64,000 nt of DNA from Posidoniimonas corsicana (lineage in GTDB: Bacteria > Planctomycetota > Planctomycetia > Pirellulales > Lacipirellulaceae). The notes under the pieces were generated by a model. That model did no database searches. It was not told the DNA's origin and saw only the letters and a list, made by a program, of their open reading frames with translations. Positions 32,569 to 52,889 of the stretch are shown one piece after another (positions within the stretch are counted from its first letter, which is position 1; every line of letters begins with the position of its first letter). The stretch spans positions 124,001-188,000 of the forward strand of contig NZ_SIHJ01000004.1 in NCBI RefSeq assembly GCF_007859765.1, written 5' to 3'. The translations under genes and the position numbers were made by a program.

Positions 32569-32600
32569 GTCTTCCAACCGCCCCACGACGCCAAACCGCC

Positions 32601-34525: not shown

Positions 34526-34554
34526 GTCACGTTTGGTCCCCATCGAGTCAACGC

Positions 34555-36243
34555 ATGTCGGCCCTAACCGACGCAAAACCCGAAGCCATCGGCGGCGGTT
34601 CTCTCGAAACCGGCGACCTGATCGGCGCGCTCCTGGCCGAGTCGCGAGAGCTGACCGCGGTCGAGCGGTTCGCCAAGCAGCACGACGCCGGCGACCTGCC
34701 GGCCCAGGCCAAGCACTACCGCGACCTGGTGCCGCTCACCAAGCCCGGCGCGGGCCAGCAGTACGCGTTCGAGGTGGACCTCGACCAGTGCAGCGGCTGC
34801 AAGGCTTGTGTGAGCGCCTGCCACAGCCTGAACGGCCTAGAGCCCACAGAAACCTGGCGCAGCGTTGGCCAGCTGCACGGCCAGAACGGGCTGCCGATCA
34901 TCCAGCACGTCACCACCGCGTGCCACCACTGCGTCGACCCCGGCTGCCTGAACGGCTGCCCCACCAACGCCTACGAGAAGGACCCCGAGACCGGCATCGT
35001 CCGCCACCTGGACGACCAGTGCTTCGGCTGCCAGTACTGCACCATGACCTGCCCGTACGAGGTGCCGCAGTACAGCGAGTCGAAGGGCATCGTCCGCAAG
35101 TGCGACATGTGCCACGGCCGGCTGGCCGAGGGCGAGGCCCCCGCCTGCGTGCAGGCGTGCCCGAACCAGGCGATCAAGATCACCGTGGTCGACGTCGCGC
35201 AAACGGTTTCGCGGACCAACGCCGGCGCGTTCCTGCCGGCGACCCCACCGTCGATGCTCACCAACCCGACCACCGTCTTCAAGTCGAGCCGGTCGCTGCC
35301 GGCCGACCTGCTGGCGGCCGACGCCAACTTCGCCAAGCCCCAGCACGCTCACCTGCCGCTGGTGCTGATGCTGGTGCTGACGCAGATGTCGGTCGGCGCG
35401 GTGGCGTTCGGCGCAATGGCCCGGTGGGCCGGCTTCAACGAGGGCGCGGGCGCGGCGATCGTGCTGGGCGTGCTGGCCGGCCTGGGCGGCTTGGGCCTGG
35501 CGCCGCTGCACCTGGGCCGCCCCCACCTGGCGTTCCGCTCGATCCTCGGCTGGCGGCACTCGTGGCTCAGTCGCGAGGCGATCGTGTTCGGCGTCTACGC
35601 CCCGATGGCGATGGCCGCCGCGGCCTACGTGGCGCTCCCGTATGTTGAATCCTACCTGCCCGAGTTGATCCAATCGCTGCTGGGGCTGGCCCTGCCCGGG
35701 TTCGCGCGGCCCGCGGCCGAGGTGCTCGCGGTCGCCGCCGGCGCCGCGGGCGTGTTCTGCTCGGCGATGATCTACATCTTTACCGGCCGGGAGTTCTGGC
35801 GCGGCGTCCGCACGTTCGCCAGGTTCTTCGGCTCGGCCGTTGTGCTGGGGCCCGCGTTCACCCTGGCCTGCGTGGCGGCAGCCGCCGCGGCGACCGCCCA
35901 GACCAGTTCAGCCGGCGTGCTGGCCGCCGCGACGGTTCTCGCGACCGTCGGCAAGCTCGCGTACGAGACCCGTTTGTTCCTCAACACGTCGGGCTCGCTG
36001 CCGCTTACCGCCCGACTGATGAAGCGCGACCTGCGTCCCCTCACACTGGCAAGGGTGGCCCTGGCCGTGTTTGGCGGCGTGCTGACGCCGATGGTGGTCG
36101 GCGTAGCCGGACTGGGGTCGTGGGGAGTGGCCGCCATGGCCGTGGTCGGATTCGGCGGCCTGCTGCTCGGCGAGTTCGCCGAGCGGGCTCTGTACTTTAG
36201 CGCGGTAATCCCGCTCAAGATGCCGGGGGGCGTCAAGTCATGA
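34555..36243 (+). CDS. Fused DmsB-DmsC: four-cluster ferredoxin plus quinol-type membrane anchor
   Basis: A 562-residue product from the ATG at 34555 ([15 protein letters not shown]). The N-terminal half carries four cysteine groups for [4Fe-4S] clusters ([41 protein letters not shown]...CVQAC), as in DmsB. Residues about 270-562 form a DmsC-like anchor of eight or so segments, with the diagnostic [24 protein letters not shown] region. In the DMSO reductase family these are separate subunits passing quinol electrons to a molybdoenzyme. The downstream nitrate reductase overlaps its stop (ATGA), so this fusion is the likely electron donor. Confidence 0.9.
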
Positions 36244-38486
36244 GCAGCACGCTCATCAAAGAGAAGCCGTCCGACGGCAAGGCACGCAACGGCCTGTTGA
36301 ACACGGTGATGAGCCTCATCCATCAGAAGGATGGGGTGCTCACCCAGGACCTGATCCGCACGCCCGGCAAGTTCGGGCTGGGCCAGGTGCCGGACCGCCT
36401 GCGGCCCGACGCCACGACCGACATGGTCTGCGGCTACTGCTCCACCGGCTGCAGCCTGCGGGTGCACCTCAAGGACGGCGAGGCGGTCAACCTGACGCCG
36501 ACCACCGAGTACCCGGTCAACCTCGGCATGGCCTGCCCCAAGGGGTGGGAGGCGCTCAACGTGCTGGACGCGGACGACCGCGCCACCCGCCCACTCCTGC
36601 GCGGCGCCGACGGCGGATTGAAGCACGTCTCGTGGGACAAGGCGCTGCGGACGTTCTGCGAACGCTTCAAGGCCATCGGCGAGCAGTACGGCCCAGAGTC
36701 GGTCGCGTTCCTCAGCACCGGGCAGATGGTCACCGAGGAGCTGGCCCTGCTGGGCGCGCTGACCAAGTTCGGCATGGGCATCGTGCACGGCGACGGCAAC
36801 ACCCGCCAGTGCATGGCCACCGCGGCGACCGCCTACAAGCAGTCGTTCGGTTTCGACGCGCCGCCATTCACGTACCAGGACTTCGAGGAGTCGGACGTGA
36901 TCGTGCTGGTCGGTTCAAACCTGTGCGTCGCGCACCCCATCATGTGGGAACGCGTCTGCCGCAACCCGCACAACCCCGAGATCATCGTGGTCGACCCGCG
37001 GCGGACTGAGACCGCCATGGCCGCCACCACGCACCTGGCGATCAAGCCGAAGTCCGACCTGGCCTTCTTCTACGCCCTGGCGAACATCCTCTGCCGCGAG
37101 GGCTGGGTGGACCGCGGCTACATCGACGCCCACACCAGCGACTTCGACGAGTTCGCCTCGTTCGTGCAGCAGTACACACCGCAGCGCGCCGCCGACGAGT
37201 CGGGCGTCCCGGTCGAGACCATCGAGCAGGTCGCCCGCAAGATCCACGAGGGCGAGCGGGTGTCGTTCTGGTGGACGATGGGCGTCAACCAGAACTACGA
37301 GGGCGTGCGGATCGCGCAGAGCCTGATCAACCTCGCGCTGATGACCGGCAACATCGGCCGCCCGGGCACGGGCGCCAACAGCGTCACGGGCCAGTGCAAC
37401 GCGATGGGCTCGCGGATGTTCAGCAACACCACCGGGTTGTACGCCGGGCGGGACTTCCTGGACCCGGAGCACCGCCGCGAGGTGGCGGACATCCTCGACC
37501 TGCCGATCGAGAACATCCCCGCCGAGAACAGCTGGCCCTACCACCAGATCATCGACGGCATCGAGAGCGGCGCCATCAAGGGCCTGTGGGTGGTCTGCAC
37601 GAACACGTCGCACTCGTGGATCCACCAGACCGAGGCCCGCGAACTGCTCGGCAAGCTCGACTTCCTCGTGGTGCAGGACATGTACCACAGCACCGAGACC
37701 GCCCAGCAGGCGGACCTCGTGCTGCCGGCCGCGGGCTGGGGCGAGAAGGAGGGCACGTTCATCAACAGCGAGCGGCGGCTGGGCGTCGTGAAGCGGGTCC
37801 GCCGGCCGCCGGGCGAGGCGCTGCCCGACTTCTCGATCTTCCGCCTGGTGGCCGAGTACTGGGGCTGCGGCGACCTGTTCCGCCGCTGGTCCACGCCCGA
37901 AGCCACGCTCGAGATCCTCAAGGACCTGTCGCGCGGCCGGCCGTGCGACATCTCGGCGATCGGCGACTACGCCACCATCGACCACGCCGGCGGCGTGCAG
38001 TGGCCCTGCACCGACTCGCCCGAGGTCCTCGACCAGCAGCGGCGGCTGTTCGAGGACGGCCGCTACTACCACGAGGACGGCCGCGCACGGTTCCTGTTCG
38101 AGGACTCGCGCGGCATGCCCGAGCCGCCGGACGACGACTACCCGTTCCTGCTGATCACGGGCCGCGGCGCGGCGTCGCAGTGGCACACCCAGACCCGCAC
38201 CGGCAAGTCCGAGGTGCTGAAGAAGCTGTACCCCAAGAACGTCTACGTCGAGATGAACCCCGCCGACGCCGCGGCGGCCGGCCTGGAGAGCTACGACAAG
38301 GCGGTCGTGTGGTCCCGCCGCGGCGAGCTGATCGCCACCGTGTTCGTTACGCCAACCGTGCAGCCCGGGCAGCTGTTCATCCCGATGCACTACGAGGCGA
38401 CCAACCGCCTGACGCTCCCGCACTTCGACCCGTACTCCCATCAACCCAGCTACAAGGACTGCGCGGTCGCGGTCGCCCCCGCCTAG
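36240..38486 (+). CDS. nasA: Assimilatory-type nitrate reductase, molybdopterin catalytic subunit
   Basis: A 748-residue molybdenum bis-MGD enzyme. The N-terminal [4Fe-4S] motif is C64-x2-C67-x3-C71-x27-C99, and Cys191 in [18 protein letters not shown] is the expected Mo ligand. [50 protein letters not shown] and the C-terminal [11 protein letters not shown] block follow the NasA/NarB/NapA plan. No Tat or other leader is seen, so it is cytoplasmic. It overlaps the DmsBC fusion gene by four bases and precedes nirA, which fits nitrate to nitrite reduction before ammonium formation. Confidence 0.94.
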
Positions 38487-38499: not shown

Positions 38500-40335
38500 A
38501 TGAGCGAGAACAACGGCTTCAACGCAGAACAGCAGACCTTCCTGCAGGGCTTCGCGCTCGGCTCGGACGTCGCCCGCAAGGTGCGGGGCCTGCCGGTGAT
38601 CTCCGGCAGCGGCGGCCCGGCCGGCGAGACCCTCACGCTCGGCGCCCCCGCCCCGGCGCCCGCGGCGGGCGAGCTGCCACGCGACCCGATGTCCGTCCAC
38701 GCCGAGGCCCAGGACCGCCAGGTCGCGGCCGGCGGCAAGCTGGTAGCCGAGGAGAAGGCCAAACGCGCCAAGCCGCCCCGCGACATGTGGGACGAGATGC
38801 AGGCCCGCGCCGACGCCGGCGAGTTCCCCAAGGGCACCGACGTCTTCCTGACCAAGTTCTACGGCATGTTCTACGTCGCGCCGGCGCAGGACTCGTACAT
38901 GTGCCGCCTGCGCTTCCCGGGTGGCGCCATCAAGAGCTGGCAGCTCCGCGGCCTGGCCGAGATGGCCGACAGCTTCGCCGGCGGCTACGCCGACGCCACC
39001 ACCCGCGCCAACCTGCAGCTCCGCGAGATCGGCGCCGGCGACTGCATCAACGTGCTGACCGGCCTGCGGGACCTGGGCATCATCAACTACGGCGCCGGCG
39101 GCGACAACATCCGCAACGTCACGGCCAGCCCGCTCAGCGGGATCGACCCGACCGAGCTGATCGAGACCCTCCCGCTCGCCCGCGACATGCACTACTACCT
39201 GATCAACCACCGCGAGCTGTACGGCCTGCCACGCAAGTTCAACATCGCGTTCGACGGCGGCGGTTCGATCAGCGCCCTGGAGGACACCAACGACATCGGC
39301 TTCACCGCCGTGCGGGCCGCGGGTCCCGACCTGCCCGAGGGGGTCTACTTCCAGCTCACCCTGGGCGGCATCACCGGCCACAAGGACTTCGCCCGCCCGA
39401 CCGGCGTGCTGCTCGAGCCGCAGGAGTGCGTCGAGGTGGCGGCCGCCATCGTGCGGGTGTTCATCAAGAATGGCGACCGCACCAACCGCAACAAGGCGCG
39501 GCTCAAGTACGTGCTGGACGACTGGGGCTTCGACAAGTTCATCGAGGAGGTCGAGGCGGACCTGGGCCGCCCACTGCGGAAGGCGCCGCTGGACGTGTGC
39601 CAGCCGCGGTCGTCCGACGACCGGCAGGGCCATATCGGCGTCCACGCCCAGAGCCAGGAGGGGCTGAACTACGTCGGCGTGGCGTTCCCGGTCGGACGCA
39701 TGACCAGCGACCAGATGCGGGGCCTGGCCAAGATCTCCGACCGCTACGGCGACGGCGACATCCGCCTGACCGTCTGGCAGAACCTGCTGATCGCCAACAT
39801 CCCGGACGCGGACGTCGACGCCGTGAAGGCCGAGATCGAGGCGATCGGACTCGACCACGACGCCAACAGCATCCGCGCGGGTCTGATCTCTTGCACCGGC
39901 TCCGCCGGGTGCAAGTACGCCGCCGCGCCCACCAAGGCCAACTCGCTGACCATCGCCGACTACGTCGAGCAGCGGCTGGAGCTGGACGTGCCGGTCAACA
40001 TCCACCTGACCGGCTGCCACCACTCGTGCGCCCAGCACTACATCGGCGACATCGGTCTGATCGCCGCCAACGTCGAGAACCCGGACGACCCCGACGGCGA
40101 CACCGTCGAGGGCTACCACATGTTCGTCGGCGGCGGCTACGGGGAACGCCGCGGCATCGGCCGCGAGCTGTTCAACGGGCTCCCGTTCAGCCAGGTGCCG
40201 GCCCGCGTGGCCACGTTGCTGCAGGCGTACCTGGACAACCGGCAGTCGCCCGAGGAAGCGTTTGTCGAATTCACCCGCCGCGTCGAAGTCGAGGAGCTCC
40301 GCGAGCTCTGCCTCACGGCGCCGGCCCTCGCCTAA
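38500..40335 (+). CDS. nirA: Ferredoxin-type nitrite reductase NirA with N-terminal extension
   Basis: A 611-residue sirohaem enzyme. The cluster/sirohaem cysteines are C465-x5-C471 (CTGSAGC) and C506-x3-C510 (GCHHSC). Two sulfite/nitrite reductase half-repeats are visible. It reduces nitrite to ammonium with six electrons. About 110 residues precede the family core and start with [15 protein letters not shown], a motif shared with the next gene's product. The gene lies 13 bases after nasA. The electron donor is probably the adjacent reductase rather than photosynthetic ferredoxin (inference). Confidence 0.93.
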
Positions 40336-40369: not shown

Positions 40370-41929
40370 ATGAGCGTTTCCATCATCCCGGAATCCGCCC
40401 CCTTCACGCCCGAGCAGCGCTCGTGGCTCAACGGTTTTCTCGCGGGCTGGGCGGGCGTTGTGGACGACCCGCAGGCCAGCGGGCAGGGCCTGGCCGGCGC
40501 GTTGATGCCGCCGCCGCTCGAGGCGCCCGCCGAGGAAGAGGAGGACGAGGACTTCCCCTGGCACGACCCGGCCCTGGAGATGGACGAGCGGCTCAAGCTG
40601 GCCGAGGACAAGCCGCTGAAGCGGAAGATGATGGCCGCCATGGCGCAGCTCAACTGCGGCGCTTGCGGCTACGTCTGCCAGACCTACTCCGAGGCGATCG
40701 CGGCCGGTGAGGAGTCGAACCTGACGCTCTGCTCGCCCGGCGGCAAGGCGACCGCCAAGATGCTCAAGAAGCTGGTCAAGGAAGGGGGCGACGCCCCCGC
40801 CGCCAGCAACGGCAAGGCCGAGGCCGCCAAGCCGGCCGAGAGCGGCTACACCCGGGCCAACCCGTACGCGGCGCGCGTCAAGGCGTGCTACAACCTCAAC
40901 CAGGCCGGCTCGTCGAAGCAAACGTCGCACGTCGAGATCGAGCTGGGGGACAGCGGCCTGGCGTACGAGGCCGGTGACGCCCTGGGCGTCTACCCGACCA
41001 ACTGCCCGGACCTGGTTGACGAGATCCTGCCCCTGATCGGCGCCGGCGGCAACGGCGACGTCAAGCAGCAGCTCGTCGAGAAGTACTGCCTGCGGGGCGT
41101 CTCGGACGAGCTGCTCGAGCAGCTCGCAGACGCCGCCCAGTCCGAGACCGAAGCGGCCGACCTGCGTGGCCTCATCGATTCCGATGAGCTCGACGTGCTC
41201 GATGTGCTGGACGTGCTCAAGCGGGCGCCCTCGGCCCACATCACGCCCGATCAGCTGTTCGGCTGCCTGTCGCCGATGGCGCCGCGGCTGTACTCGATCG
41301 CCAGCTCGCCGGCCGCCCACCCGGGCGAGGTCCACCTGACCGTGGGCCGCGCCACCTTCGCGAACGACGGCCGCGTCTACAAGGGCGTGGCTTCCACCAT
41401 GTTCTCCGACCGGACCGAGAACGGCCACGCGGTCGGCGTCTACGTGCACAAGTCGCACGGGTTCAACGTGCCGGCCGACCCCAGGGCGCCGATGATCATG
41501 GTGGGCCCCGGCACGGGCATCGCGCCGTTCCGCGCGTTCCTCGAGGAACGCGAGGCCACCGGCGCAACCGGCAAGAACTGGCTGTTCTTCGGCGACCAGC
41601 ACGCGGCCACCGACTTCCTGTACGAAGAGCAGCTGTCCGGGATGGCCGAGCGGGGCGTGCTCAACAAGCTCAGCACCGCGTTCAGCCGCGACCAGGAGAC
41701 CAAGGTCTACGTGCAGGACCGGATGCGCGAGGAGGGCGCGGAGCTGTTCGCCTGGCTCGAAGAAGGCGGCAGCTTCTTTGTCTGCGGCGACGCCCGGCGG
41801 ATGGCGGTCGACGTTGACCGCGCGCTGCACGACGTCATCGCCGAGCACGGCGGCATGAGCGACGAGGCCGCGAAGCTGTACGTCGCGACCCTCAAAGACG
41901 AAGGACGCTACGTCCGCGACGTCTACTAG
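40370..41929 (+). CDS. CysJ-like FAD/NAD(P)H reductase with RnfB-like Fe-S domain
   Basis: A 519-residue product from the ATG at 40370 (MSVSIIPESAPFTPEQRSWL). It opens with the same EQ-x3-L-x-GF motif as NirA. Next is a small iron-sulfur domain, C96-x2-C99-x3-C103 with C121 in LCSPGG, resembling the RnfB Fe-S domain. From about residue 155 it follows the CysJ/P450-reductase FAD and NAD(P)H fold: RLYSIASSP, GVASTMFSDR, MVGPGTGIAPFRAFL, LFFGDQ and FVCGDARRMAVDVD. The usual flavodoxin domain is absent. It probably supplies NAD(P)H electrons to NirA or the nitrate reductase. Confidence 0.88.
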   Translation: MSVSIIPESAPFTPEQRSWLNGFLAGWAGVVDDPQASGQGLAGALMPPPLEAPAEEEEDEDFPWHDPALEMDERLKLAEDKPLKRKMMAAMAQLNCGACGYVCQTYSEAIAAGEESNLTLCSPGGKATAKMLKKLVKEGGDAPAASNGKAEAAKPAESGYTRANPYAARVKACYNLNQAGSSKQTSHVEIELGDSGLAYEAGDALGVYPTNCPDLVDEILPLIGAGGNGDVKQQLVEKYCLRGVSDELLEQLADAAQSETEAADLRGLIDSDELDVLDVLDVLKRAPSAHITPDQLFGCLSPMAPRLYSIASSPAAHPGEVHLTVGRATFANDGRVYKGVASTMFSDRTENGHAVGVYVHKSHGFNVPADPRAPMIMVGPGTGIAPFRAFLEEREATGATGKNWLFFGDQHAATDFLYEEQLSGMAERGVLNKLSTAFSRDQETKVYVQDRMREEGAELFAWLEEGGSFFVCGDARRMAVDVDRALHDVIAEHGGMSDEAAKLYVATLKDEGRYVRDVY

Positions 41930-41982: not shown

Positions 41983-43989
41983 GTGGCAGACACCCAAGAT
42001 CTGCAAACAGACTGCGCGCGGCCATCGCTGGTGGTCGTCGGCGCCGGCATGGCGACCCACGCTCTGCTCCAGCGGCTCCGTCGCAACGGCGCGCTCGAGC
42101 GGCTCGACGTGACGGTCATCGGCGAGGAGCCGCGGCCCTGCTACGACCGCGTCAACCTCACCAGCTGCTTCGGCGGCGTCCCGCCCGACGACCTGCTGCT
42201 CTCGCCGGTCGAGTGGTACCGCGAGAACGGGGTCCGGCTGCGCACCGGTGTGCGAGCAACCGGGATCGATCGATCGCGCCGTGCCGTATCGACCGACCCG
42301 CACGGCGAGATCCGGTACGACCACCTGGTGCTCGCGACCGGGTCCCGGCCCTTCGTCCCGCCGATCGACGGCGTGGACCTGCCGGGCGTGTTCGTCTACC
42401 GCACGATCGATGACATCGAAGCGATCCGACAGCACGCCGGGATCTGCCGAACGGCCGCCGTGCTGGGAGGCGGGCTGCTGGGGCTCGAGGCCGGCAAGGC
42501 GCTCTACAACCTCAGCCTCCAGGCCCACGTAGTCGAGGTGGCCCCCGGGCTGATGCCCAGGCAGCTCAACGCCGAGGCGGCCGACCTGCTGAGAGAAGAG
42601 GTGGAGAGCCTGGGCGTGAGCGTTCATCTGCTCCGCCGCGCGTCGCGCCTGGAGCAGGACGGCGCCAAGGTGGTGGTCCACTTCGCCCGGCACGACCCGC
42701 TGAGCGTTGACATGGTGGTCATCTCCGCCGGCATCCGCCCGCGAGACGAACTCGCCCGCGACGCCGGGCTGGAGGTTGGTGAGCGGGGCGGCGTCGCGGT
42801 TAGCGGCGCCCTGCAAACATCCGACCCGCGCGTGTGGGCGGTCGGTGAGTGCGCATCGGTTGATAACGAACTCTTCGGCCTGGTCGGCCCGTGCTACGAG
42901 ATGGCCGAGGCGCTGGCGGACAACCTCGCCGCGATGACGCAGGGGAACCCGATGTCCGCCCGCTTCCACAGCGGGGCGAGCGCGTCGCGGCTAAAGCTGA
43001 TGGGGGTGGACGTGTCGACCCTCGGCAAGCCGATCGGAGAGGCCGCCGCCGCGTCGGTGCTGGTCAGACGGGGGGACGGCTACTGCCGCACCCTCATGGT
43101 CGAACGCGGCCGCGTGGTCGGCGCCATCGGCGTCGGGGACTGGCCGGAGCGGGAACGCCTGAGCGGGCTGATCGCCGCGAACCGTCGCGTGTCGCAGCGC
43201 CAGCTGCGCCGGTTCCAAAGGACCGGCGCGGTGTGGTCCGCGTCGGAGGGCGCCTCGGTGATGGAGTGGCCCGCGGCGGCCACCGTCTGCAGCTGCCTGG
43301 GCGTGACCCGCGGCGACCTGACCGACGCGTTGCAGGCGGGCGCCGGGACCCCTGAGCAGCTTGCCGAGTCGACCGGCGCGTCGACCGTGTGCGGATCGTG
43401 CCGCAACCTGCTGTGCGCGCTTTGTGATCAGCCGGAGGTGGCGGTGGGGGCGAAGGGCAGGGGGGCCCTGCTCGGCGCGTCGGTGTTTGCCGCGCTCGTC
43501 ACGCCCGTGCTGATGGCCTACCGCCCCAGCCGATTCGCCGACACGGTCCAGTCGGCCTGGCGGCGGGTCGACTTCCTCTGGCAGGACGACGTCGCTAAGC
43601 AGGTCACGGGGTACACGCTGCTGGCAATCTCGCTGCTGGCTCTGCTGCTCTCGCTGCGGAAACGGCTGACGCGGTTCCGGCTGGGCGACTTCAACCTCTG
43701 GCGGGGCGTCCACGGCGTGCTCGGCGCCGGCACGCTAGTCGGCTTTGTGGTGCACACCGGCATGAGCCTGGGGCACAACTTCACGTTCGCGTTGGGGTCG
43801 GCGTTCCTGCTGCTCAACCTGCTGGGGGCGGCGACCGGCGTGGCGGCATCCATGGAGAGCCGCCTCACCGGACGCTGGGGCCGCTCGCTCCGCGCCTGGC
43901 GGCCCCGCTTGACCAGGGCGCACATCTGGTTGTTCTGGCCGCTGCCGGCGTTGGTCCTATTCCACATCATCTCCGTCTACTACTACTGA
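41983..43989 (+). CDS. NirB-like FAD protein with [2Fe-2S] domain fused to a haem-b-like membrane domain
   Basis: A 668-residue product from a GTG at 41983. Residues about 10-400 match the FAD/NAD(P)H half of NirB/NasB (VVVGAGMATHALLQRL, YDRVNLTSCFGG, AAVLGGGLLGLEAGKAL). A Bfd-like [2Fe-2S] site follows at C436-x-C438 and C470-x2-C473. The sirohaem half of NirB is missing. Instead there are about five membrane segments from about 495 to 668, with histidines in RGVHG, VVHTG, RAHIW and LFHII that could hold two b-type haems. It looks like a membrane NAD(P)H:cytochrome conduit to the adjacent multihaem cytochrome; this role is inference. Confidence 0.8.
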   Translation: MADTQDLQTDCARPSLVVVGAGMATHALLQRLRRNGALERLDVTVIGEEPRPCYDRVNLTSCFGGVPPDDLLLSPVEWYRENGVRLRTGVRATGIDRSRRAVSTDPHGEIRYDHLVLATGSRPFVPPIDGVDLPGVFVYRTIDDIEAIRQHAGICRTAAVLGGGLLGLEAGKALYNLSLQAHVVEVAPGLMPRQLNAEAADLLREEVESLGVSVHLLRRASRLEQDGAKVVVHFARHDPLSVDMVVISAGIRPRDELARDAGLEVGERGGVAVSGALQTSDPRVWAVGECASVDNELFGLVGPCYEMAEALADNLAAMTQGNPMSARFHSGASASRLKLMGVDVSTLGKPIGEAAAASVLVRRGDGYCRTLMVERGRVVGAIGVGDWPERERLSGLIAANRRVSQRQLRRFQRTGAVWSASEGASVMEWPAAATVCSCLGVTRGDLTDALQAGAGTPEQLAESTGASTVCGSCRNLLCALCDQPEVAVGAKGRGALLGASVFAALVTPVLMAYRPSRFADTVQSAWRRVDFLWQDDVAKQVTGYTLLAISLLALLLSLRKRLTRFRLGDFNLWRGVHGVLGAGTLVGFVVHTGMSLGHNFTFALGSAFLLLNLLGAATGVAASMESRLTGRWGRSLRAWRPRLTRAHIWLFWPLPALVLFHIISVYYY

Positions 43990-44005
43990 GTTCGCCCGCT
44001 CGTTG

Positions 44006-45403
44006 ATGTCCACCAAACCGCAATGGCTCGCCTGGCTGGCGTTAACCTCTGTGATGGTCGCGTTCTTCGTGTACAGCCTGCTCGGCCGCTCCAGTTCCGC
44101 GTCGCGGACGTTCCTGCCCGGCGTTACAACGCACGGCCACTACCAGATTGAGCTCAAGTGCCAGGAGTGCCACACCCCCGGCATGGGCGTGCTGCACGAC
44201 GCGTGCACGCGGTGCCACGGGCAGGAGCTGAAGGACGCCACCGACACGCACCCGCGGTCTAAGTTCACCGACCCGGGCAAGGCGGACATGGTCGCAAAGC
44301 TAGACGGCCGCTCGTGCGTGACCTGTCATCAAGAGCACGTGCCCGACCGCACGCTGGCGATGGGCCTTTCGCTGCCGGGCGACTACTGCTGGCACTGCCA
44401 CCAGGACGTGGGAGAGCAGCGTCCCAGTCACGCCGGGCTGGCGTACGACTCGTGCGCCGCCTCGGGCTGCCACAACTACCACGACAACCGAGCGCTGTTC
44501 GAGGACTTTCTTGTTAACCACTTTGGCGAACCCGACGTGCTGGACGACCCGCGGGTCCCGGCGCGGGGAGGCGCCTCAACCCGGAACCGAGACGATGCGG
44601 AGCTTCAACCGCTTGCGGCCGCCGATCAGGATTCGCCGCTGGCCGATCCGACCGACCGGTCGATCCTTGACGAGTGGTCCGCCGACGCGCACGCGGCGGC
44701 GGGGGTCAACTGCTCTGGCTGCCACGTCAGCGACGCGGGAGTCTGGTCCGACCGGCTCTCCCACGACGCCTGCCAGCGGTGCCACGACCGTGAGGTCGGC
44801 GGCTTCCTCGCCGGACGGCACGGGATGCGACTCGCCGTGGATCTACCAGCGATGTCGCCGGGCATGGCGCGACTGCCCATGAAGCACGACGCGCTGCACC
44901 GCGACCTCGACTGCACGGCGTGCCACCAGGACCACCGGTTCGACGTCCGTTTTGCGGCGGTCGACGCGTGCCTCGCCTGCCACAACGACGCTCACTCGCT
45001 CGCCTACAAGGAATCGGAACACTTCGCGCTGTGGGAGCAGGAACTCAACGACCCCGACGCGGCGGGCGCCGGCGTCTCGTGCGCCACGTGCCACATGCCC
45101 CGTCTTAAGGGGCCCTCGGGCGAGGTCTTTGTGCAGCACAACCAGAACGACAACCTCCGACCCAACGACAAGATGGTGCGTTCCGCCTGCGACAACTGCC
45201 ACGGCCTGCAGTTCACGCTCGACGCGTTGGCGGACCGCCCGTTGATCGACGCCAACTTCAAAGGGCTGCCCTCCACCCGCGTGGAGAGCATCGACATGGC
45301 CAAGGCCTGGGCCGACGAGCGGGAGCGGCTGCGAGAAGAACGGGCCAGGCGGCGGGCCCAGAGCAAGCAGGGGGCTGCGGACACACAGAGATCAGGCGGT
45401 TAA
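44006..45403 (+). CDS. Multihaem cytochrome c, about 11 haems, membrane-anchored
   Basis: A 465-residue protein from the ATG at 44006 (MSTKPQWLAWLALTSVMVAFF, one membrane anchor). Ten CxxCH haem sites start at residues 52, 67, 104, 128, 236, 256, 303, 322, 359 and 395. An eleventh, C150-AASG-C155-H, has a four-residue spacer. CATCHMPR resembles the CxxCHMP pattern seen in nitrite and hydroxylamine-type cytochromes, but no full NrfA or HAO layout is present. The C-terminus is a charged helix. It begins 17 bases after the membrane FAD protein, suggesting direct electron exchange in the periplasm. Confidence 0.9.
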   Translation: MSTKPQWLAWLALTSVMVAFFVYSLLGRSSSASRTFLPGVTTHGHYQIELKCQECHTPGMGVLHDACTRCHGQELKDATDTHPRSKFTDPGKADMVAKLDGRSCVTCHQEHVPDRTLAMGLSLPGDYCWHCHQDVGEQRPSHAGLAYDSCAASGCHNYHDNRALFEDFLVNHFGEPDVLDDPRVPARGGASTRNRDDAELQPLAAADQDSPLADPTDRSILDEWSADAHAAAGVNCSGCHVSDAGVWSDRLSHDACQRCHDREVGGFLAGRHGMRLAVDLPAMSPGMARLPMKHDALHRDLDCTACHQDHRFDVRFAAVDACLACHNDAHSLAYKESEHFALWEQELNDPDAAGAGVSCATCHMPRLKGPSGEVFVQHNQNDNLRPNDKMVRSACDNCHGLQFTLDALADRPLIDANFKGLPSTRVESIDMAKAWADERERLREERARRRAQSKQGAADTQRSGG

Positions 45404-45476: not shown

Positions 45477-46088
45477 ATGTTGCAGAGTAACAGCCTAACC
45501 CTGTTGGTCGTCCTGCCGCTGCCCGTGCTGCTGACCGGGTGCGGCGGCGGTTCTGCCCCAACGGGGATTACGCCGGAGAAGTTTGCCGACGGGGTCCACG
45601 CCGTGATGATGGCCGACCGAACCGTGTACGCCACGCACGTGGTGACGCGGCTCAAGGGGCAGTCCGCGCCGGTGAAACCGGACGAGTACTGGGACAAGTG
45701 GACCGAGGACTCGGGCGACCCCCACATGCTGCCGCTGCCGGCGCAGATGTTCCGGATGGGCGCGTCGCTGGTGAACGAGAACCCCGACGCAGGGTTCAAG
45801 TACAGCCTGAAGTCGCTGTGGCCCCTCAACCCCGAGCACAAGCCGGTGAGCGAGGAGGAGACCAAGGCCCTCGAGTACCTCAGCGAGCACCCGGGCGAGA
45901 CCTACACCGCCGAGGTGACCGACGCCGACGGGAACAAGCTGTTCACCAAGTACTACCCCGACCGCGCCGTGGCCGCCGCCTGCTGGGAGTGCCACAACGA
46001 GCACGAACGACGCGGCGACGACTACCCGGAGTTCGCCAAGGACGATGTGATGGGCGCCGTGGTGATTTACGTGCCGGTAAGCGGCTAG
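45477..46088 (+). CDS. Tll0287-like haem lipoprotein (DUF3365)
   Basis: A 203-residue lipoprotein (MLQSNSLTLLVVLPLPVLLTGC, lipobox LTGC). The mature part resembles the Tll0287-like/DUF3365 family: YATHVVTRLKGQSAPVKPDEYWDKWTEDSGDPHMLPLPAQM and SLWPLNPEHKP, with a single haem site CWECHNEHERRGDDYPEFAKDDVMGAVVI near the C-terminus. Such domains bind haem in sensor or redox settings. It lies in the cytochrome cluster of the nitrate island, eleven bases before the next cytochrome gene. Confidence 0.82.
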   Translation: MLQSNSLTLLVVLPLPVLLTGCGGGSAPTGITPEKFADGVHAVMMADRTVYATHVVTRLKGQSAPVKPDEYWDKWTEDSGDPHMLPLPAQMFRMGASLVNENPDAGFKYSLKSLWPLNPEHKPVSEEETKALEYLSEHPGETYTAEVTDADGNKLFTKYYPDRAVAAACWECHNEHERRGDDYPEFAKDDVMGAVVIYVPVSG

Positions 46089-46098: not shown

Positions 46099-46470
46099 AT
46101 GACAAGGCTCATCCCCCTTTGGCTGCTGGCCGTGGCCCTGAGCGGCTGCGGCCAGCAGGGCGAGGCTGAAGACGCCGCGCCCCAACTCCCCCCCACGCCC
46201 GCGGAGCACCTGGCCGGGATCGCGGTCTACGAGTCGGGGTGCGCCTCGTGCCACGACAGCAGCCGTGACGGCGCGCCCCGGCTGGGCTACCTGCCCGCTT
46301 GGGAGAAACGCCTGCCCACCGGGCCGGAAGGACTGGTGCAGAGTGTCGCGGAGGGCAAGGGGCTGATGCCCCCCCGCGGCGACCTGGCCGACGTCTCAGA
46401 CGACCAACTCGCGCAGGCCGTGGCCTACATGATCTACCGCGCTAAGCTCAACATCCCGGCCGGCCACTAG
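46099..46470 (+). CDS. Small lipid-anchored cytochrome c
   Basis: A 123-residue lipoprotein (MTRLIPLWLLAVALSGCG). One c-type haem site CASCHDSSRDGAPRLG lies near residue 50 with a likely Met ligand in GKGLMPPRGDLADVSD, as in cytochrome c5-type electron carriers. It closes the cytochrome sequence of the island and probably shuttles electrons between periplasmic partners. An ATG follows the preceding stop by ten bases. Confidence 0.88.
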   Translation: MTRLIPLWLLAVALSGCGQQGEAEDAAPQLPPTPAEHLAGIAVYESGCASCHDSSRDGAPRLGYLPAWEKRLPTGPEGLVQSVAEGKGLMPPRGDLADVSDDQLAQAVAYMIYRAKLNIPAGH

Positions 46471-46507: not shown

Positions 46508-46924
46508 ATGACGCCCGAACAGATCAACCTTGTGCAGACCACCTGGGACAAGGTGGCGCCCAACGCCGACCAGGTGGCCGTGCTGTTCTACGACCGCTTG
46601 TTCGAGATCGCGCCGGAGGTCAAGCCGCTGTTCAAGTCGGACATGACCGAGCAGGGCCGCAAGCTCATGCAGATGCTGGCGGTGGCGGTCAACGGGCTGC
46701 CCCGCTTGGAGTCGATCGTGCCGGCCGTCCAGCAGATGGGCGTACGCCACATCGAGTACGACGTGAAGCCCGAGCACTACGACTCGGTTGGCGAGGCGCT
46801 CCTGTGGACGCTCGAGCAGGGACTCGGCGACGCTTTCACGCCCGAGGTGAAGCGGGCCTGGACCGACACCTACGTAACCCTGGCGACGGTGATGAAGGAC
46901 GCCGCGGCGGCCAAGGTCGCGTAG
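46508..46924 (+). CDS. Single-domain bacterial haemoglobin
   Basis: A 138-residue globin of the Vitreoscilla/flavohaemoglobin-globin type without a reductase domain. The B10 tyrosine is in VAVLFYDRLFEIAPEVKPLF, and the F-helix histidine is in YDVKPEHYDSVGEALLWTL (His90). An AAGGAGACC ribosome site precedes the ATG. Such globins detoxify nitric oxide or store oxygen; beside nitrate and nitrite reductases, NO protection is the natural reading. Confidence 0.93.
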   Translation: MTPEQINLVQTTWDKVAPNADQVAVLFYDRLFEIAPEVKPLFKSDMTEQGRKLMQMLAVAVNGLPRLESIVPAVQQMGVRHIEYDVKPEHYDSVGEALLWTLEQGLGDAFTPEVKRAWTDTYVTLATVMKDAAAAKVA

Positions 46925-47043: not shown

Positions 47044-48693
47044 CTAGAAGTTCAGCTCCCACTGGGTGTAGAAGAAGTCGGCGTTGTCGGTGCCGATGAT
47101 CTTGCTCCCACGCCACAGGGTGGAGTAGCCAAACAGGATGTTCGACCGCGGGTCGAGCTGGTACTTGGCGATCAGGTCCAGCTCGTTGCCGAAGTCGGTG
47201 CTGTCGAGCGTCTGGGCCGACGGCACGGCCACGCCAGGGATGACGTCGCTCTCGTCGGCGGCGCCTAGGTAGTAGTACCAGGCCAGCAGCGACAGCTTGC
47301 TGCTCGGCTTCATGGTCAGCAGGCAGTTCGGCGAGCTGATGTTCGACCGCGCGGCCGCGTCGATAAAGCCGAGGTACTTGTGGGCCAGCGGGAACAACTG
47401 GTTGAACCGGTTGAACGTCCCGTCGGTTGTCGAGTCGTTGCCCGACGCGTAGTCGTAGTACATCCACATGGTGGGGGTCCAGCTGCCCGGCAGCTTGCGG
47501 CCGACGCCGCAGGTGCACATGCCGGCCCGGTGGTCGAGCCCCAGCCCGCTCTGACGGCCGGTCTGCAGGGCGCCGACCATCTCGTACAGCCAGTCGCCCG
47601 AGCCGCCGAAGATGCGGCCGCCGAACGTGTGGACGGAGAAGTCCGCACTGCCGGCCGCGGGCGAGGTGACCGGCGGAACCGCCGCGTACGCGTTGTCGTT
47701 GTCGTAGCCGATGTAGAACAGGTCGTAGCTGGCGGACTTGGCGCCGGTGTAGGTGGCGTACACGCCGTAGAACTTCTGGTTGTAGTCGGCCTCGTCAAAG
47801 TCGTCCGGCGAAACTGGCACGTAGTTCGTGAAGAACCCGTCGATGGCCCAGTCGTCCGACTTGTGCATCACCTTGATGCCCTCGAACGTGCGGCGGGTGT
47901 TCGCCCAGTCGAGCGGCGACACGAAGCGCTGGGCGCCGTACAGCAGCTCCTGGCGGCCGACCCGGACCGTGGTCGACTCGGTCACGCCGAGGTCGAAGAA
48001 CAGGTTCAGGAAGTCGCCCGAGTTGCGGTCGATCGGACGCGGGTTGTACGACTCGTTCGACAGCACGTCGGCCGTGATGCCCTCGGCGTAGACCCGGAAC
48101 CAGTCGTTCGCCTTCCAGTTGGTGTACAGCCGCAGGCGGGACAGCAGGAAGTCGTTGTCCGTGTCGAGGAACCCACGGTTGGGCGGAGTCGACAACGACG
48201 ACCGGCCCATGCCTTCCTCGTGGTGGTACCGCAGACGCAGCTGGCCGCCGATGTCGAGCGTGCCGCAGCCGACGTCCATCAGCTTCATGCAGTCGCCCAG
48301 GCAGCACGGCCCGCACGGGTCCTTCAGGTAGCTGAAGTCGTTGGCGTAGTACACGCCCTTGTGGCTGGTGAGGCACGGGCTGGGCTTGGCCGCCTTCTTC
48401 TGGCAGGCCGGGCAGCCACACCCGCAGGTGTCGCCGCAGCCGTCGCCACAGTCGTCCCCGCAGCCGCACCCGTCGGCGGCGCCGCAGGTGGGTTCGCAGC
48501 AGTCGCTGAGGTAGGAGATCTGCTGCGTCTGGTCTTCGGCGGCCAGGGCCGCGGCGGACGACGTCTCGTAGCTGGAGAATACGTCGCTGGGCATCGCCAG
48601 GCCGTCCTGGGCGCTTGCGGCGCCGGACAGCACCAGGGTCGCGGCCATCGCAATGGCAACGCTCGGTCGTTGTGTAAGAGTTGGGGTACGCAT
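47044..48693 (-). CDS. Alginate-export-like outer-membrane porin with Cys-rich N-terminal region
   Basis: A 549-residue exported protein (leader MRTPTLTQRPSVAIAMAATLVLSGAASA). Residues 65-143 hold 17 cysteines in Gly/Asp-rich context. From about 145 on it reads as an alginate-export-like beta-barrel (GGQLRLRYHHEEG, DWFRVYAEGITADVL, TTVRVGRQELLYGAQRFVSPLDW), ending with the terminal strand FFYTQWELNF whose final Phe is typical of barrels. It is convergent with the nitrate operon and divergent from the regulator pair. The passenger solute is unknown; nitrate or small anions are possible by context only. Confidence 0.85.
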   Translation of the reverse strand: MRTPTLTQRPSVAIAMAATLVLSGAASAQDGLAMPSDVFSSYETSSAAALAAEDQTQQISYLSDCCEPTCGAADGCGCGDDCGDGCGDTCGCGCPACQKKAAKPSPCLTSHKGVYYANDFSYLKDPCGPCCLGDCMKLMDVGCGTLDIGGQLRLRYHHEEGMGRSSLSTPPNRGFLDTDNDFLLSRLRLYTNWKANDWFRVYAEGITADVLSNESYNPRPIDRNSGDFLNLFFDLGVTESTTVRVGRQELLYGAQRFVSPLDWANTRRTFEGIKVMHKSDDWAIDGFFTNYVPVSPDDFDEADYNQKFYGVYATYTGAKSASYDLFYIGYDNDNAYAAVPPVTSPAAGSADFSVHTFGGRIFGGSGDWLYEMVGALQTGRQSGLGLDHRAGMCTCGVGRKLPGSWTPTMWMYYDYASGNDSTTDGTFNRFNQLFPLAHKYLGFIDAAARSNISSPNCLLTMKPSSKLSLLAWYYYLGAADESDVIPGVAVPSAQTLDSTDFGNELDLIAKYQLDPRSNILFGYSTLWRGSKIIGTDNADFFYTQWELNF

Positions 48694-49210: not shown

Positions 49211-50689
49211 ATGCCCGCTGCGCTTGGCCCCGCCCCCGCTGACTGCCCCTCCGTGCTGGTGATTGATGACGACCCGCTGATATCGGTAGTAGTGCGGCGG
49301 GCGTTGGAGGGCATCAACCACCGCATGCGGACCGCCCTGGATGGCAAGCTGGGGCTGGACGCGATCTCCACTGAGCAGCCAGACGTCATTGTGCTGGACA
49401 ACGTGCTCCCCGACGGGCTCGGCGTCGAGGTGCTGGAGCAGATCCACCAACTGGCGCCCAACGTGCCGGTGCTGTTCGTCACGGCCCGCGGGTCGGGCAG
49501 CACCGCCATCGAGGCGATGAAGCTGTGCGCGTTCGACTACCTGCCGAAGCCGCTCGACCCGCCAAAGCTCAAGAGCCAGATCCGCCGGGCGCTGTCGCTA
49601 CGGCAACTGATCCAGTCCGACCCGACCCTCAGCCACAGCGGCGACGCGCGCTCGGCCGACGCTCCGACGGAACCACCGCCCACCTCCGACGCGTTGGTTG
49701 GCGAGTGCCCGGCTATGCAGTCCGTCTTCAAGGCGATCGGCAAAGTCGCCTCGCAGAACGTCGCGGTGCTGTTGAGGGGCGAGCACGGAACCGGCAAGGA
49801 GGCTATCGCCCGCGAGATCCACTTCCACAGCCAGCGGAAGACCGGACCGCTCGTCAAGATCCACTGCCCGGCGTTCGAGGAACGACAGCTCGAGCTCGAG
49901 ATATTCGGGACCGAGTCCCAACCAGGGAAGATCGAGGAGGCAGCCGGCGGCACCCTGGTGCTGCAGGAGATTGGCGGGCTGGGGCTCTCGCTGCAGTCTA
50001 AGCTGCTCCCGCTGTTCCGCGACGGCGCGTACCTGCCGGTCGGCGGCGCGGCGCCCCGCCGGGCGGACTGCCGCGTCATCTCGATCACCGGCGAGCCGCT
50101 CGAGGCCCGCGTCCGCAGCGGCGACTTCCGGTCGGACCTCTACTACACCCTCGGCGCTTTCGTCATCACGCTGCCGCCGCTCCGCCAGCGGCGGGGCGAC
50201 CTGCCGCTGCTAATCGCGCACAGCCTCAACAAGCTCCGTCCGATCTACAAGGAATTCGGCGTCGAGCAGCCGCGCGTCTCTGAGGCGGCGATGCAGTCCC
50301 TCTGCAGCCACGTCTGGCCCGGCAACATCGACGAGCTGGAGAGCGTGCTGAAGCGTGCGTTGGTCGAGCAGAAGGGCCACATCCTGCTCGCGGCCGACCT
50401 GCGTGACGTCCTGTCCGGCGACCCGGTTGTGCAGCCCTCGGAGGAGTCGGACGACGGGCAGTACACGACCGATTGGGTCTCGTTCGCCCAGCTGCGGATC
50501 GACGGCGGCACCGACACGCTCCACGCCGATGCGATCGAAGAAGCCGAGCGCAAGCTCTTCGCGCGGGTGCTGAGCCACACGGGCGGAAACCAGGCCCACG
50601 CGGCGCGCCTGCTGGGGATCACCCGGGCGAGCCTCCGCAAGAAGCTGCGGATGTACAGCATGGCGCCGAAGCCGTCGGGAGACTCCTGA
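49211..50689 (+). CDS. NtrC-like response regulator lacking the sigma-54 GAFTGA loop
   Basis: A 492-residue protein. The receiver domain (VLVIDDDPLISVVVRRALEG) has its phospho-acceptor at Asp63. The AAA+ domain keeps a Walker A variant GEHGTGKE at 190-197, but the L1 loop that should carry GAFTGA is deleted (EIFGTESQPGKIEEAAGGTL), the Walker B aspartate is Gln252 (LVLQEIGG), and the usual YYRL is YYTL. A Fis-type helix-turn-helix closes the protein (GGNQAHAARLLGITRASLRKKL). It therefore probably controls nitrate genes without sigma-54, as an ordinary activator or repressor. It precedes the sensor gene. Confidence 0.9.
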   Translation: MPAALGPAPADCPSVLVIDDDPLISVVVRRALEGINHRMRTALDGKLGLDAISTEQPDVIVLDNVLPDGLGVEVLEQIHQLAPNVPVLFVTARGSGSTAIEAMKLCAFDYLPKPLDPPKLKSQIRRALSLRQLIQSDPTLSHSGDARSADAPTEPPPTSDALVGECPAMQSVFKAIGKVASQNVAVLLRGEHGTGKEAIAREIHFHSQRKTGPLVKIHCPAFEERQLELEIFGTESQPGKIEEAAGGTLVLQEIGGLGLSLQSKLLPLFRDGAYLPVGGAAPRRADCRVISITGEPLEARVRSGDFRSDLYYTLGAFVITLPPLRQRRGDLPLLIAHSLNKLRPIYKEFGVEQPRVSEAAMQSLCSHVWPGNIDELESVLKRALVEQKGHILLAADLRDVLSGDPVVQPSEESDDGQYTTDWVSFAQLRIDGGTDTLHADAIEEAERKLFARVLSHTGGNQAHAARLLGITRASLRKKLRMYSMAPKPSGDS

Positions 50690-50702
50690 GGACCCCGCGA
50701 TC

Positions 50703-52889
50703 ATGATCAGGCGGAGATCAAGCGGACGGACGGGCGGCCCCCACTCGCAGGGGCGGCTGATGACCATCCTGTACGTCAGCGCGCTCAGCTCCGTGGCGCT
50801 GTTGACCTGCGGTGGCCAGTGGCTCGTCCAGCGGCAGCTGGTGCGCGGCGAGAGCGACTCGCGGGTCATCAACATCGCGGGTCGGCAGCGGATGCTCAGC
50901 CAGAAGCTCGCCAAAGCCTCGCTCCAGATCGAGTCGTCCGGCGCCGGACACAGCGCGGGGCGGGACGAGCTGCGTCAGACGCTGGACCTGTGGTCTCGCT
51001 CCCACCGTGGGCTGCAGAGCGGCGACGCCGAAGAGGGACTGCCGGGTCACAACTCCCAGGCGGTGCAGCGGCTGTTCGCGGCGATCGAGCCCGATTACCG
51101 GGCCATGCGTTCCTCGGCCCTCACGCTGCTCGACCCGGCGACCAGCCCGCCGATGGCGGCCCGGGCCGCGGCGTCCATCCAGGAGCACGAGGACCAGTTC
51201 CTGGCGGGTATGGACGACATTGTTTCGCAGTACGTGCGGGAAGCAGAGGGCAAGGTTGCGCGGCTTAGGCTGCTGGAGCGGGCGATCCTGGCGCTCACGC
51301 TGCTCGTGCTGCTGGCCGAAGGCCTGCTAATCTTTCGACCCGCGGTTCGACAGATCGACCGTACCCTCGCCCGCCTCAACCGCACCGGCCGGCGGCTGCG
51401 GGCCGCCAAGCTTCGGGCCGAGGAGGCGGACGCCGCCAAGTCCCGTTTCTTGGCCAACGTGAGCCACGAGCTCCGCACGCCAATGACCGCGGTGCTCGGG
51501 ATGACCGAGGTCGCCCGCGGCGAGACCGACCCGGACCGCCGCGACAACAGCCTCGCCACCGTATCGCAGGCGGGCGAGCTGCTGCTCGGCCTGCTGAACG
51601 ACCTGATCGACTTCGCCCGTATCGACTCCGGCAAGCTGGAGCTGGTGATCCGCCCGTTCTCCCCGCACGAGGTGCTAGGACGCGTCTGCGAGATGATGCG
51701 TCCCGCCTGCGAGGCGAAGAACCTCAGCCTCGCGCCGATGGCGGGCGTAGACAAGGAGTTGCGGGTGCTGGGTGACGCGCGGCGGCTAGAGCAGGTGCTG
51801 CTGAACCTGCTTGCGAACGCGATCAAGTGGACCAGCGAGGGGGTGATCTACGCCCGCTGCGAGACGCTCCGCTCGAGCGGTTCGCTGGTCACTCTCAGGT
51901 ACACAATCCAGGACACGGGCGTCGGGATAAGCGAGGAGCACCACGGGCGTGTCTTCGAACCGTTTACGCAGGTGGCCGGCGACAAGACGACCGCAATCAG
52001 TGGCGTCGGGTTGGGCTTGGCGATCTGCAAGCGCATCGCGAACGCGATGGGGGCGGACCTCAGCCTCACCAGCAGCCCCGGCGTCGGGACCACGGTCACT
52101 CTAACAACCGACTTCTGCCTGGCGGGCCCAGCCTCGCCGCAGGCCGATCATCCGCCCGCCACGGAAACGACGCCCAGGCGGGTGCTGGTCGTCGAGGACA
52201 CCGAGGTCATCCAGGCCGTTTTCCACGAGTTCTTAAGTGGCGCCGGGCACGCCGTCGCCGTGGCGGACAGTGGCGAGCAGGCCGCGGAGCTGACGGCGGA
52301 GCAGTCGTTCGAAATCGCGTTCGTGGACCTGCAACTCCCCGGCATGGACGGCGTGGCCACCGCCAACGCGCTCCGTCAGGGTGCAGTGGGAGGTCGGGCG
52401 CCCAGGCTGGTGTGCGTGACCGCCGACGCCCGGGCGTCGCTTGAGGATTCGCAGCTCGAAGCGGTCTTCGATTCGGTGCTGATCAAGCCGTTCAGCCGGG
52501 CCCAGATTGAGCAAGAGATCGCGGCGACTGCCGGTCTGGGCGGTTTCCCTCCCGCAGCCGACAGCGGTGAACCCGGCGCAGATGGAGAAGCCGATCTGCA
52601 GCAGGAGCTGACAGAGGTCTACCTGAAGGTTGCCGTCCAGCAGGAGCGCGACCTTTCCGCCGCGGTGGCCGAACAACGTTTGCCCGACGCGCACGTGCTG
52701 GCCCACCGTATCGCCGGCCAGGTCGCCTGCTTTGGCGAGCCGGAGTTGGTGGCCGGGCTCAGGTCGCTAGAAGACGCTTGCAAGGCAGGCCAATACGACC
52801 GGGCCGCTGCGGACGCCAAACAGTGGCTGCCCGAGCTCAAACGCTTCCGGTCGAAGCTGAGCAGCGAGCTCGTCGACCTGCCGAGCTAA
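50703..52889 (+). CDS. Hybrid histidine kinase with NarX/PilJ-type nitrate-sensing domain
   Basis: A 728-residue sensor with a GAGGA ribosome site. Membrane segments at about 21-42 and 192-212 frame a periplasmic domain whose first helix carries the P-box NIAGRQRMLSQKLAK (residues 57-71), the nitrate-binding signature of NarX/PilJ-type sensors. The kinase core has His255 in SHELRTP, an N-box NAIKWT and G-boxes DTGVGI/GVGLGL. A receiver with Asp542 and an HPt domain with His668 (AHRIAG) follow. It should sense nitrate or nitrite and feed the regulator encoded 13 bases upstream. Confidence 0.92.
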   Translation: MIRRRSSGRTGGPHSQGRLMTILYVSALSSVALLTCGGQWLVQRQLVRGESDSRVINIAGRQRMLSQKLAKASLQIESSGAGHSAGRDELRQTLDLWSRSHRGLQSGDAEEGLPGHNSQAVQRLFAAIEPDYRAMRSSALTLLDPATSPPMAARAAASIQEHEDQFLAGMDDIVSQYVREAEGKVARLRLLERAILALTLLVLLAEGLLIFRPAVRQIDRTLARLNRTGRRLRAAKLRAEEADAAKSRFLANVSHELRTPMTAVLGMTEVARGETDPDRRDNSLATVSQAGELLLGLLNDLIDFARIDSGKLELVIRPFSPHEVLGRVCEMMRPACEAKNLSLAPMAGVDKELRVLGDARRLEQVLLNLLANAIKWTSEGVIYARCETLRSSGSLVTLRYTIQDTGVGISEEHHGRVFEPFTQVAGDKTTAISGVGLGLAICKRIANAMGADLSLTSSPGVGTTVTLTTDFCLAGPASPQADHPPATETTPRRVLVVEDTEVIQAVFHEFLSGAGHAVAVADSGEQAAELTAEQSFEIAFVDLQLPGMDGVATANALRQGAVGGRAPRLVCVTADARASLEDSQLEAVFDSVLIKPFSRAQIEQEIAATAGLGGFPPAADSGEPGADGEADLQQELTEVYLKVAVQQERDLSAAVAEQRLPDAHVLAHRIAGQVACFGEPELVAGLRSLEDACKAGQYDRAAADAKQWLPELKRFRSKLSSELVDLPS

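Follow-up and report, generated by a model that had tools for sequence, protein, structure and literature searches.

We analyzed a window of 64,000 nucleotides from Posidoniimonas corsicana (assembly GCF_007859765.1, contig NZ_SIHJ01000004.1, positions 124,001 to 188,000 of the forward strand; all positions below are those of the window), in which a gene for a NirB-like flavoprotein fused to a membrane domain is followed by a gene for a multihaem cytochrome. An earlier, sequence-only reading had proposed that the two proteins could form a transmembrane electron conduit, in a fusion without a known counterpart. Both open reading frames (ORFs) are present where that reading placed them and run in the same direction, and a gene for a Tll0287-like haem protein lies downstream:

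41983..43989, plus strand: fusion protein, a NirB/NasB-type NAD(P)H-flavin adenine dinucleotide (FAD)-[2Fe-2S] half with a di-haem-b-like membrane domain (ORF, Pfam, NCBIfam, AlphaFold2, Foldseek)
42025..42867, plus strand: Pyr_redox_2 region of the fusion (PF07992, 9.2e-53)
43282..43410, plus strand: Bfd-like [2Fe-2S] domain, residues 434-476, with C436/C438/C470/C473 (PF04324, 4.8e-10; cysteines conserved)
43459..43983, plus strand: five-helix membrane domain, residues 493-667, with H577/H591 and H647/H661 as candidate b-haem ligands (AlphaFold2 helices, histidine conservation)
44003..45403, plus strand: membrane-anchored 11-haem c-type cytochrome, 466 residues, ten CXXCH and one CX4CH (ORF, motif counts, model)
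45477..46088, plus strand: Tll0287-like (sCache_heme) protein with a lipobox-like N-terminus and one CXXCH (PF11845, 1.2e-18)

Relatives were drawn from a cytochrome scan of genome contigs that gave 271 confirmed stretches. The best 80 of these 271, together with genomes of the window's order, make up 88 distinct loci after duplicates were removed (88 of 91 remain; L034, L035, and L038 duplicated L044, L057, and L074). The alignments hold 86 (A3), 82 (A4), 23 (A5), and 87 (A6) rows.

The fusion ORF opens with GTG and encodes 668 residues. It matches Pyr_redox_2 (9e-53), Fer2_BFD (5e-10), and Rubredoxin_C (3e-6), and the Pfam scan of the protein gave no match to the sirohaem/4Fe-4S (NIR_SIR) half (PF01077/PF03460). 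The NCBIfam NirB model TIGR02374 aligns over its positions 1-465 of 794 only, at 412 bits against a cut-off of 578. Cysteines C436, C438, C470, and C473 are those named in the sequence-only reading, and they are kept in 79 of 82 aligned sequences. The remaining three, from Polyangium, were trimmed short; since their full ORFs retain the motif, a Polyangium fusion without the [2Fe-2S] motif is rejected. These Polyangium ORFs are long, at 1252-1297 residues (L080:6095-9985, L082:6230-9985, L087:6149-9982); several hundred additional residues of low complexity separate their Bfd part from their membrane part. In Foldseek, the front half of the fusion model falls among NAD(P)H flavin reductases (top match 6pfz, E 7e-32); for the whole fusion, the 50 matches listed are all flavin reductases, and none bears on the membrane half. 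The gene at 41983-43989 is the NAD(P)H/FAD/[2Fe-2S] half of NirB/NasB without the sirohaem part, joined to a five-helix membrane domain, much as had been read from the letters.

The AlphaFold2 model of the fusion has a mean predicted local distance difference test (pLDDT) score of 92, and its last 175 residues form five membrane-length helices. Hydropathy and the model agree on these helices (493-512, 536-559, 570-592, 600-624, and 630-651/654-667), in line with the earlier estimate of about five segments. Two-haem b-type membrane proteins carry four histidines on two membrane helices, about 13-14 residues apart. The fusion has the same arrangement, as the sequence-only reading had said: H577 and H591 lie in helix 3 and H647 and H661 in helix 5, both pairs being His-x13-His, 14 residues apart. 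None of the 87 sequences departs from histidine at positions 577, 591, or 647, and position 661 is histidine in 86 of 87 (arginine in L058), at a mean pairwise identity of about 40%; H598 is not conserved. That reading would have failed with histidines outside the membrane or on different faces. All four lie within two predicted membrane helices, and by arithmetic the two members of each pair, being 14 residues apart, should face roughly the same side of their helix.

Profile searches gave little more: the cytochrome b561 profile PF01292 reaches 7e-4 and 19.9 bits, under its cut-off of 30.1, Ferric_reduct does not match the fusion's own membrane domain, and a search of PDB sequences with the membrane-domain profile returned chance-level transporters only. 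By the positive-inside rule, loops rich in positive charge face the cytoplasm. Positively charged residues are concentrated in the loops preceding helices 3 and 5, which is consistent with a cytoplasmic N-terminus; H577 and H647 would therefore lie near the cytoplasm and H591 and H661 near the periplasm. We also noted free-standing planctomycete membrane proteins of about 270-300 residues that carry two H-x13-H pairs and match no Pfam family above its cut-off (L017-L020; Ferric_reduct reaches 0.002 in L020, under cut-off). Their four sequences align with the membrane domain at 97.7% hhalign probability over 89 columns with the same histidine spacing, and they are probably a small di-haem b family.

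The cytochrome ORF can start at TTG (44003) or ATG (44006), 13 or 16 bases past the fusion stop. Its model (mean pLDDT 85.8, predicted template modelling score 0.83) begins with a membrane-length helix at residues 5-27, which bears out the expectation of a membrane-anchored multihaem protein. All 86 cytochromes, that of the window included, have ten CXXCH motifs and one CX4CH each. Among histidines outside the motifs, ten are invariant and an eleventh, H273, is histidine in 85 of 86, while H173 (76/86) and H44 (71/86) are common and not constant. One extra constant histidine per haem, eleven for eleven, points to bis-histidine (bis-His) ligation throughout, so that the cytochrome is probably a pure wire. 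CXXCK, the motif of a lysine-ligated catalytic haem, occurs in 0 of 86.

The two genes belong to a widespread three-gene module: the fusion, the 11-haem cytochrome, and, as third constant member, the Tll0287-type haem protein. The membrane domain adjoins the cytochrome on the same strand in 88 of 88 loci, with a median gap of 8 bp (no more than 100 bp in 86 of 88). The membrane domain shares its ORF with the flavin half in 84 of the 86 loci able to show it (a contig end cuts the ORF in L076 and L090, where it is not scorable). The Tll0287-type protein is present in all 86 loci able to show it, downstream in 80 and upstream in six; in the other two, L072 and L088, the sequence ends within 158 bases of the cytochrome. 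PF11845 is matched by the proteins of the window and L071, and CXXCH is found in 83 distinct Tll0287-type sequences, three others ending early.

The loci span Planctomycetota, Verrucomicrobiota, Lentisphaerota, Pseudomonadota, Myxococcota, and others, and cultured carriers include Rhodopirellula, Blastopirellula, Marinobacter, Hahella, Catenovulum, and Polyangium. That the same arrangement is found again across phyla puts it far beyond chance. The flavin half, the membrane half, and the cytochrome have correlated pairwise distances (0.69-0.76 over 78 loci), with 0 of 999 permutations as high. An AU test on 36 fusions and 8 free proteins does not reject a fusion that arose once (p-AU 0.50). In a tree of 78 cytochromes, whose bootstrap had not settled, Planctomycetota fall together (99/97) and Verrucomicrobiota, Myxococcota, and Pseudomonadota are split. 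Within the window's order, 12 of 196 genomes have the membrane domain at E 3.5e-35 or better; ten others have weak membrane-domain matches only, in open frames of 277-314 residues.

The fusion and cytochrome sit in a nitrate-assimilation region of the window, with the following neighbors:

30066-32568 and 32552-33415: ABC transporter genes
34459..36243, plus strand: DmsB-like 4Fe-4S protein fused to a DmsC-like anchor (Pfam)
36240..38486, plus strand: NasC/NasA-type molybdopterin reductase, probably for nitrate (NCBIfam best matches Fdh-alpha, NasA, and NasC, all under cut-off)
38500..40335, plus strand: NirA-family nitrite reductase (NF007126, 912 bits, cut-off 523)
40370..41929, plus strand: CysJ-like flavoprotein (NF004859, 691 bits, cut-off 432; start set at the in-frame ATG 40370, the ORF as listed opening at 40262)
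46099..46470, plus strand: small monohaem cytochrome c with a lipoprotein-like start (PF13442, 3.3e-13)
46508..46924, plus strand: single-domain globin, related to the globin domain of flavohaemoglobin (PF00042, 5e-16)
47044..48693, minus strand: Alginate_exp-type outer-membrane porin (PF13372, 9.6e-60)
49211..52889, plus strand: NtrC-like sigma-54 regulator and PilJ-domain hybrid histidine kinase (domain matches)

A GAF protein also lies in this region, between the ABC transporter genes and the fused 4Fe-4S/DmsC protein. The ORF at 32552 has no Pfam match; its listing as part of a transporter is based solely on relatives in L029-L032 that overlap a second ABC-ATPase match. The globin matches NF009805 over residues 2-132 at 87 bits, below the full-length cut-off of 432. 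The DmsB-like ferredoxin/DmsC fusion directly before the NasC-like reductase (34459-38486) suggests a quinol-linked assimilatory nitrate reductase, and the pair recurs in 11 of 11 NasC-bearing non-carrier loci examined. The PilJ-type hybrid kinase at 50703-52889, adjoining the nitrate genes, is possibly a nitrate or nitrite sensor.

Gene company was counted in the 75 loci with at least 4 kb downstream (13 of the 88 were left out), and the counts, from single-query tblastn, are lower bounds. A globin or truncated globin is the most frequent companion (54/75), and it is found in 35 of the 47 loci that have no nitrate gene. Any nitrate or nitrite assimilation gene occurs in 28 of 75 loci, NasC/NasA itself within the locus in nine; a relative of the small cytochrome c, a porin, and a nitrate-transporter binding protein occur in 20 of 75 each. 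A globin or truncated globin also adjoins the module in seven of eight gammaproteobacterial loci examined (of 16 carriers), which may overlap the 75-locus set. Directly after the module in L084 (12317-14086) and L105 (12247-13566) stand a truncated globin and then a ferredoxin-FNR-type reductase, likely a globin/reductase pair.

A link to nitrate is seen in the window's order. NasC/NasA is clustered with the fusion in the window and five relatives, and in the window's order a close NasC is present in 11 of 12 carriers versus 48 of 184 non-carriers (Fisher 8e-6). The 59 NasC genomes of this comparison, and the eight joint gammaproteobacterial genomes of the one below, were tallied by eye from listings. 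A NasC/NasA-like match at E 1e-20 or better is present in each of the 33 carriers tested. A close NasC (at least 58% identity) in 23 of them leaves the idea that the module replaces the molybdenum nitrate reductase unsupported; in the other ten the best NasC match is 31-36% identical at E 1e-91 or better, which alone is no proof of a nitrate reductase. Replacement of the assimilatory nitrite reductase is likewise not supported: a NIR_SIR protein passes the cut-off in 33 of 33 carriers. This domain does not separate nitrite from sulphite reductase, so the case is not closed in Polyangium (G207), which has one such ORF only.

Natural losses bear on what the module is needed for. In L119, from the same genus as the window, a DDE transposase (PF13808/PF01609) stands in the place of most of the module (L119:11444-13457). 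All that is left is the fusion's first 88 residues, the tail of the Tll0287-type gene, and a disrupted small cytochrome c, while the nitrate genes and globin are retained. Five more non-carriers of the family (L120-L124) have the NasC, NirA, and CysJ-like locus without the module, and none of them gives a strong match to the membrane domain. An essential role in the nitrate locus is thereby rejected, and the module is an accessory cassette.

Altogether, we propose, at roughly even chances, that the fusion and its 11-haem partner make up a quinone-independent conduit in the inner membrane that carries electrons outward, in the service of periplasmic chemistry related to nitric oxide (NO) or nitrite. 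Cytoplasmic NAD(P)H would be oxidized by the NirB/NasB-like FAD domain, and electrons would pass from FAD through the Bfd [2Fe-2S] cluster to a putative b haem on the cytoplasmic side (H577-H647), from there to one on the periplasmic side (H591-H661), and on to the membrane-anchored cytochrome. The next carriers would likely be the Tll0287-type protein and, where present, the small cytochrome c. Delivery of reductant outward for NO- or nitrite-related chemistry would be the most likely use, in cells that would keep a cytoplasmic globin handling NO or O2 and in many cases assimilate nitrate. The globin may in addition receive electrons from the flavin half, as is proposed for Bjgb and Flp. We prefer outward flow because a flavin half of the NirB/NasB kind oxidizes NAD(P)H and because several haem proteins stand on the periplasmic side. 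Of the conduit advanced in the sequence-only reading, the parts, the histidine pairs in predicted membrane helices, and a pairing with the 11-haem cytochrome that is conserved across phyla all stand, and its function is a candidate role.

A narrower version strikes us as doubtful: an NAD(P)H dehydrogenase that works without quinone and sends electrons over two b and eleven c haems to a haem protein of its own in the periplasm, which reduces or clears NO or nitrite, the globin doing likewise inside. The usual electron source of multihaem cytochromes is the quinone pool, by way of NapC/CymA-type proteins. If the conduit is real, it would tie the NAD(P)H pool directly to a multihaem wire in the periplasm, an entry point of another kind, and the module would give stand-alone Tll0287-type haem proteins a role.

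The link to NO is drawn from the gene company and from work on NO binding by a Tll0287-type domain with labile ligation, as far as the accessible text of that study goes (PMC12889525). There, a stand-alone Tll0287 relative with Cys/His ligation binds NO poorly, and tight binding is seen in a signalling-fused relative whose ligation is labile. We count in favour of an NO link that the module's Tll0287-type proteins have no cysteine near the CXXCH that could serve as such a ligand. The available parts of a Bradyrhizobium study (PMC4724949) offer, in Flp and Bjgb, a precedent for an NAD(P)H flavoprotein with a globin in nitrate assimilation and NO defence.

Several observations weigh against our proposal. 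The accessible text of PMC12889525 proposes stand-alone Tll0287 proteins to be redox rather than NO proteins, a role that would suit an electron carrier just as well. In 12 of 75 loci there is no globin and no nitrate gene nearby, and L121 has a globin in its nitrate locus without the module, so part of the globin's company may be indirect. In the order of a Marinobacter carrier, NasA (scored at E 1e-150) is present in 8 of 16 carriers versus 52 of 129 others (p 0.32). Since the module does not track NasA there, the nitrate link is not general: it holds in the window's order and fails in the gammaproteobacterial one. Two loci depart from the common architecture: L073, a Dadabacteria metagenome-assembled genome (MAG), has a membrane domain and no flavin half, and the fusion ORF of L057 is split by a frame break. 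L057 and its duplicate L035 are Planctomycetes bacterium SV_7m_r, in which the break could be a true loss or a sequencing error. Finally, an acidic residue at the position of E185 is taken as favouring NADH, and E185 is glutamate in only 54 of 82 sequences.

Electrons might instead flow inward, from periplasmic cytochromes or an outside donor through the 11-haem cytochrome, b haems, and [2Fe-2S]/FAD to NAD(P)+ or to a cytoplasmic reductase such as NasC, a scheme we judge unlikely. The membrane potential would help such flow, the flavin half has NasB and Flp-like proteins among its relatives, and the fusion directly follows NasC in four relatives (L029-L032); the MAG that contains a further relative, L079, has an isolate name suggestive of a biocathode. 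Bradyrhizobium Flp is needed for growth on nitrate and not on nitrite, according to the available parts of PMC4724949. Against it, Catenovulum has its own NasB beside NasA, the window's NasC already has a DmsBC-like module, and related species run the FeS-DmsC/NasC/NirA/CysJ locus without the module. At typical c-type potentials, reducing NAD+ would also be uphill unless coupled in a way yet to be described.

It is also improbable, in our view, that the module is unrelated to nitrogen and works as a general NADH:cytochrome c oxidoreductase or redox-sensing device, feeding the small cytochrome c (for an oxidase or peroxidase) or setting the state of a Tll0287-type sensor. The 47 of 75 loci without a nitrate gene, the 8 of 16 gammaproteobacterial carriers without a NasA match, and the small cytochrome c in 20 loci would all suit such a device, whereas the globins (54/75) and nitrate-transporter binding proteins (20/75) call for a link to nitrogen or NO.

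Rather unlikely, too, is that the 11-haem cytochrome is itself a periplasmic reductase of nitrite, NO, or hydroxylamine driven by NADH, in effect replacing the sirohaem half of NirB. Its C-terminal six-haem half has a weak likeness to the HAO/NrfA/octahaem nitrite reductase (ONR) superfamily. The cytochrome differs from HAO/NrfA/ONR in its eleven haems, an extra five-haem N-terminal half, and the membrane anchor, and no lysine-ligated or open haem is evident. That the membrane half binds no haem, as a relic or a plain anchor keeping a NasB-like donor near the membrane, would suit the sub-threshold cytochrome b561 match and is very hard to square with four invariant or near-invariant histidines in such divergent sequences, their constant 14-residue spacing, and the constant multihaem partner.

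Among known systems, no description of the module was found in the open-licence literature, which is weak evidence given its partial coverage; the sequence-only reading knew of no described system with such a fusion, and to this we add that it is not one-off, being part of a widespread module frequently accompanied by globins. The accessible part of an Idiomarina paper (PMC9230427) lists a DUF3365 protein and shows no such module. The third member is a PF11845 protein and so resembles Tll0287/sCache_heme. It differs from characterised Tll0287 in having no candidate axial-ligand cysteine near the domain: in 0 of 83 distinct sequences is there a cysteine in the up to 125 residues before CXXCH or after it. 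As a constant partner of a putative electron conduit it has a context absent from the accessible text of PMC12889525, where the main text does not use the word multiheme. Among extracellular conduits of the Uet and Mtr types, UetJ (PMC10734462, as far as accessible) has eleven haems like the window's cytochrome, a likeness of haem count and not of sequence; Uet is described there with porin, triheme, and NHL proteins, for which no search beside the module loci was made. The Flp-Bjgb-NasC system, in the available parts of PMC4724949, has globin and nitrate genes nearby as the module does, Flp being set beside the fusion by description only.

The closest relatives of the flavin half are NirB and NasB, which have the same domains and cysteines as the N-terminal 480 residues of the fusion. 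This part is 42% identical to Marinobacter NirB, 35% to Catenovulum NasB, and 41% to a free planctomycete Flp-like protein. In contrast to NirB, NasB, and Flp, the fusion has no sirohaem half, a five-helix membrane domain in its place, and a multihaem cytochrome as partner. In NADPH oxidases, ferric reductases, and MsrQ-type systems, cytoplasmic NAD(P)H and flavin feed b haems across the membrane and an acceptor outside. The module would share this layout, by architecture only, and differs in the fold of its flavin unit, in an added [2Fe-2S] cluster, and in an 11-haem cytochrome as the probable acceptor.

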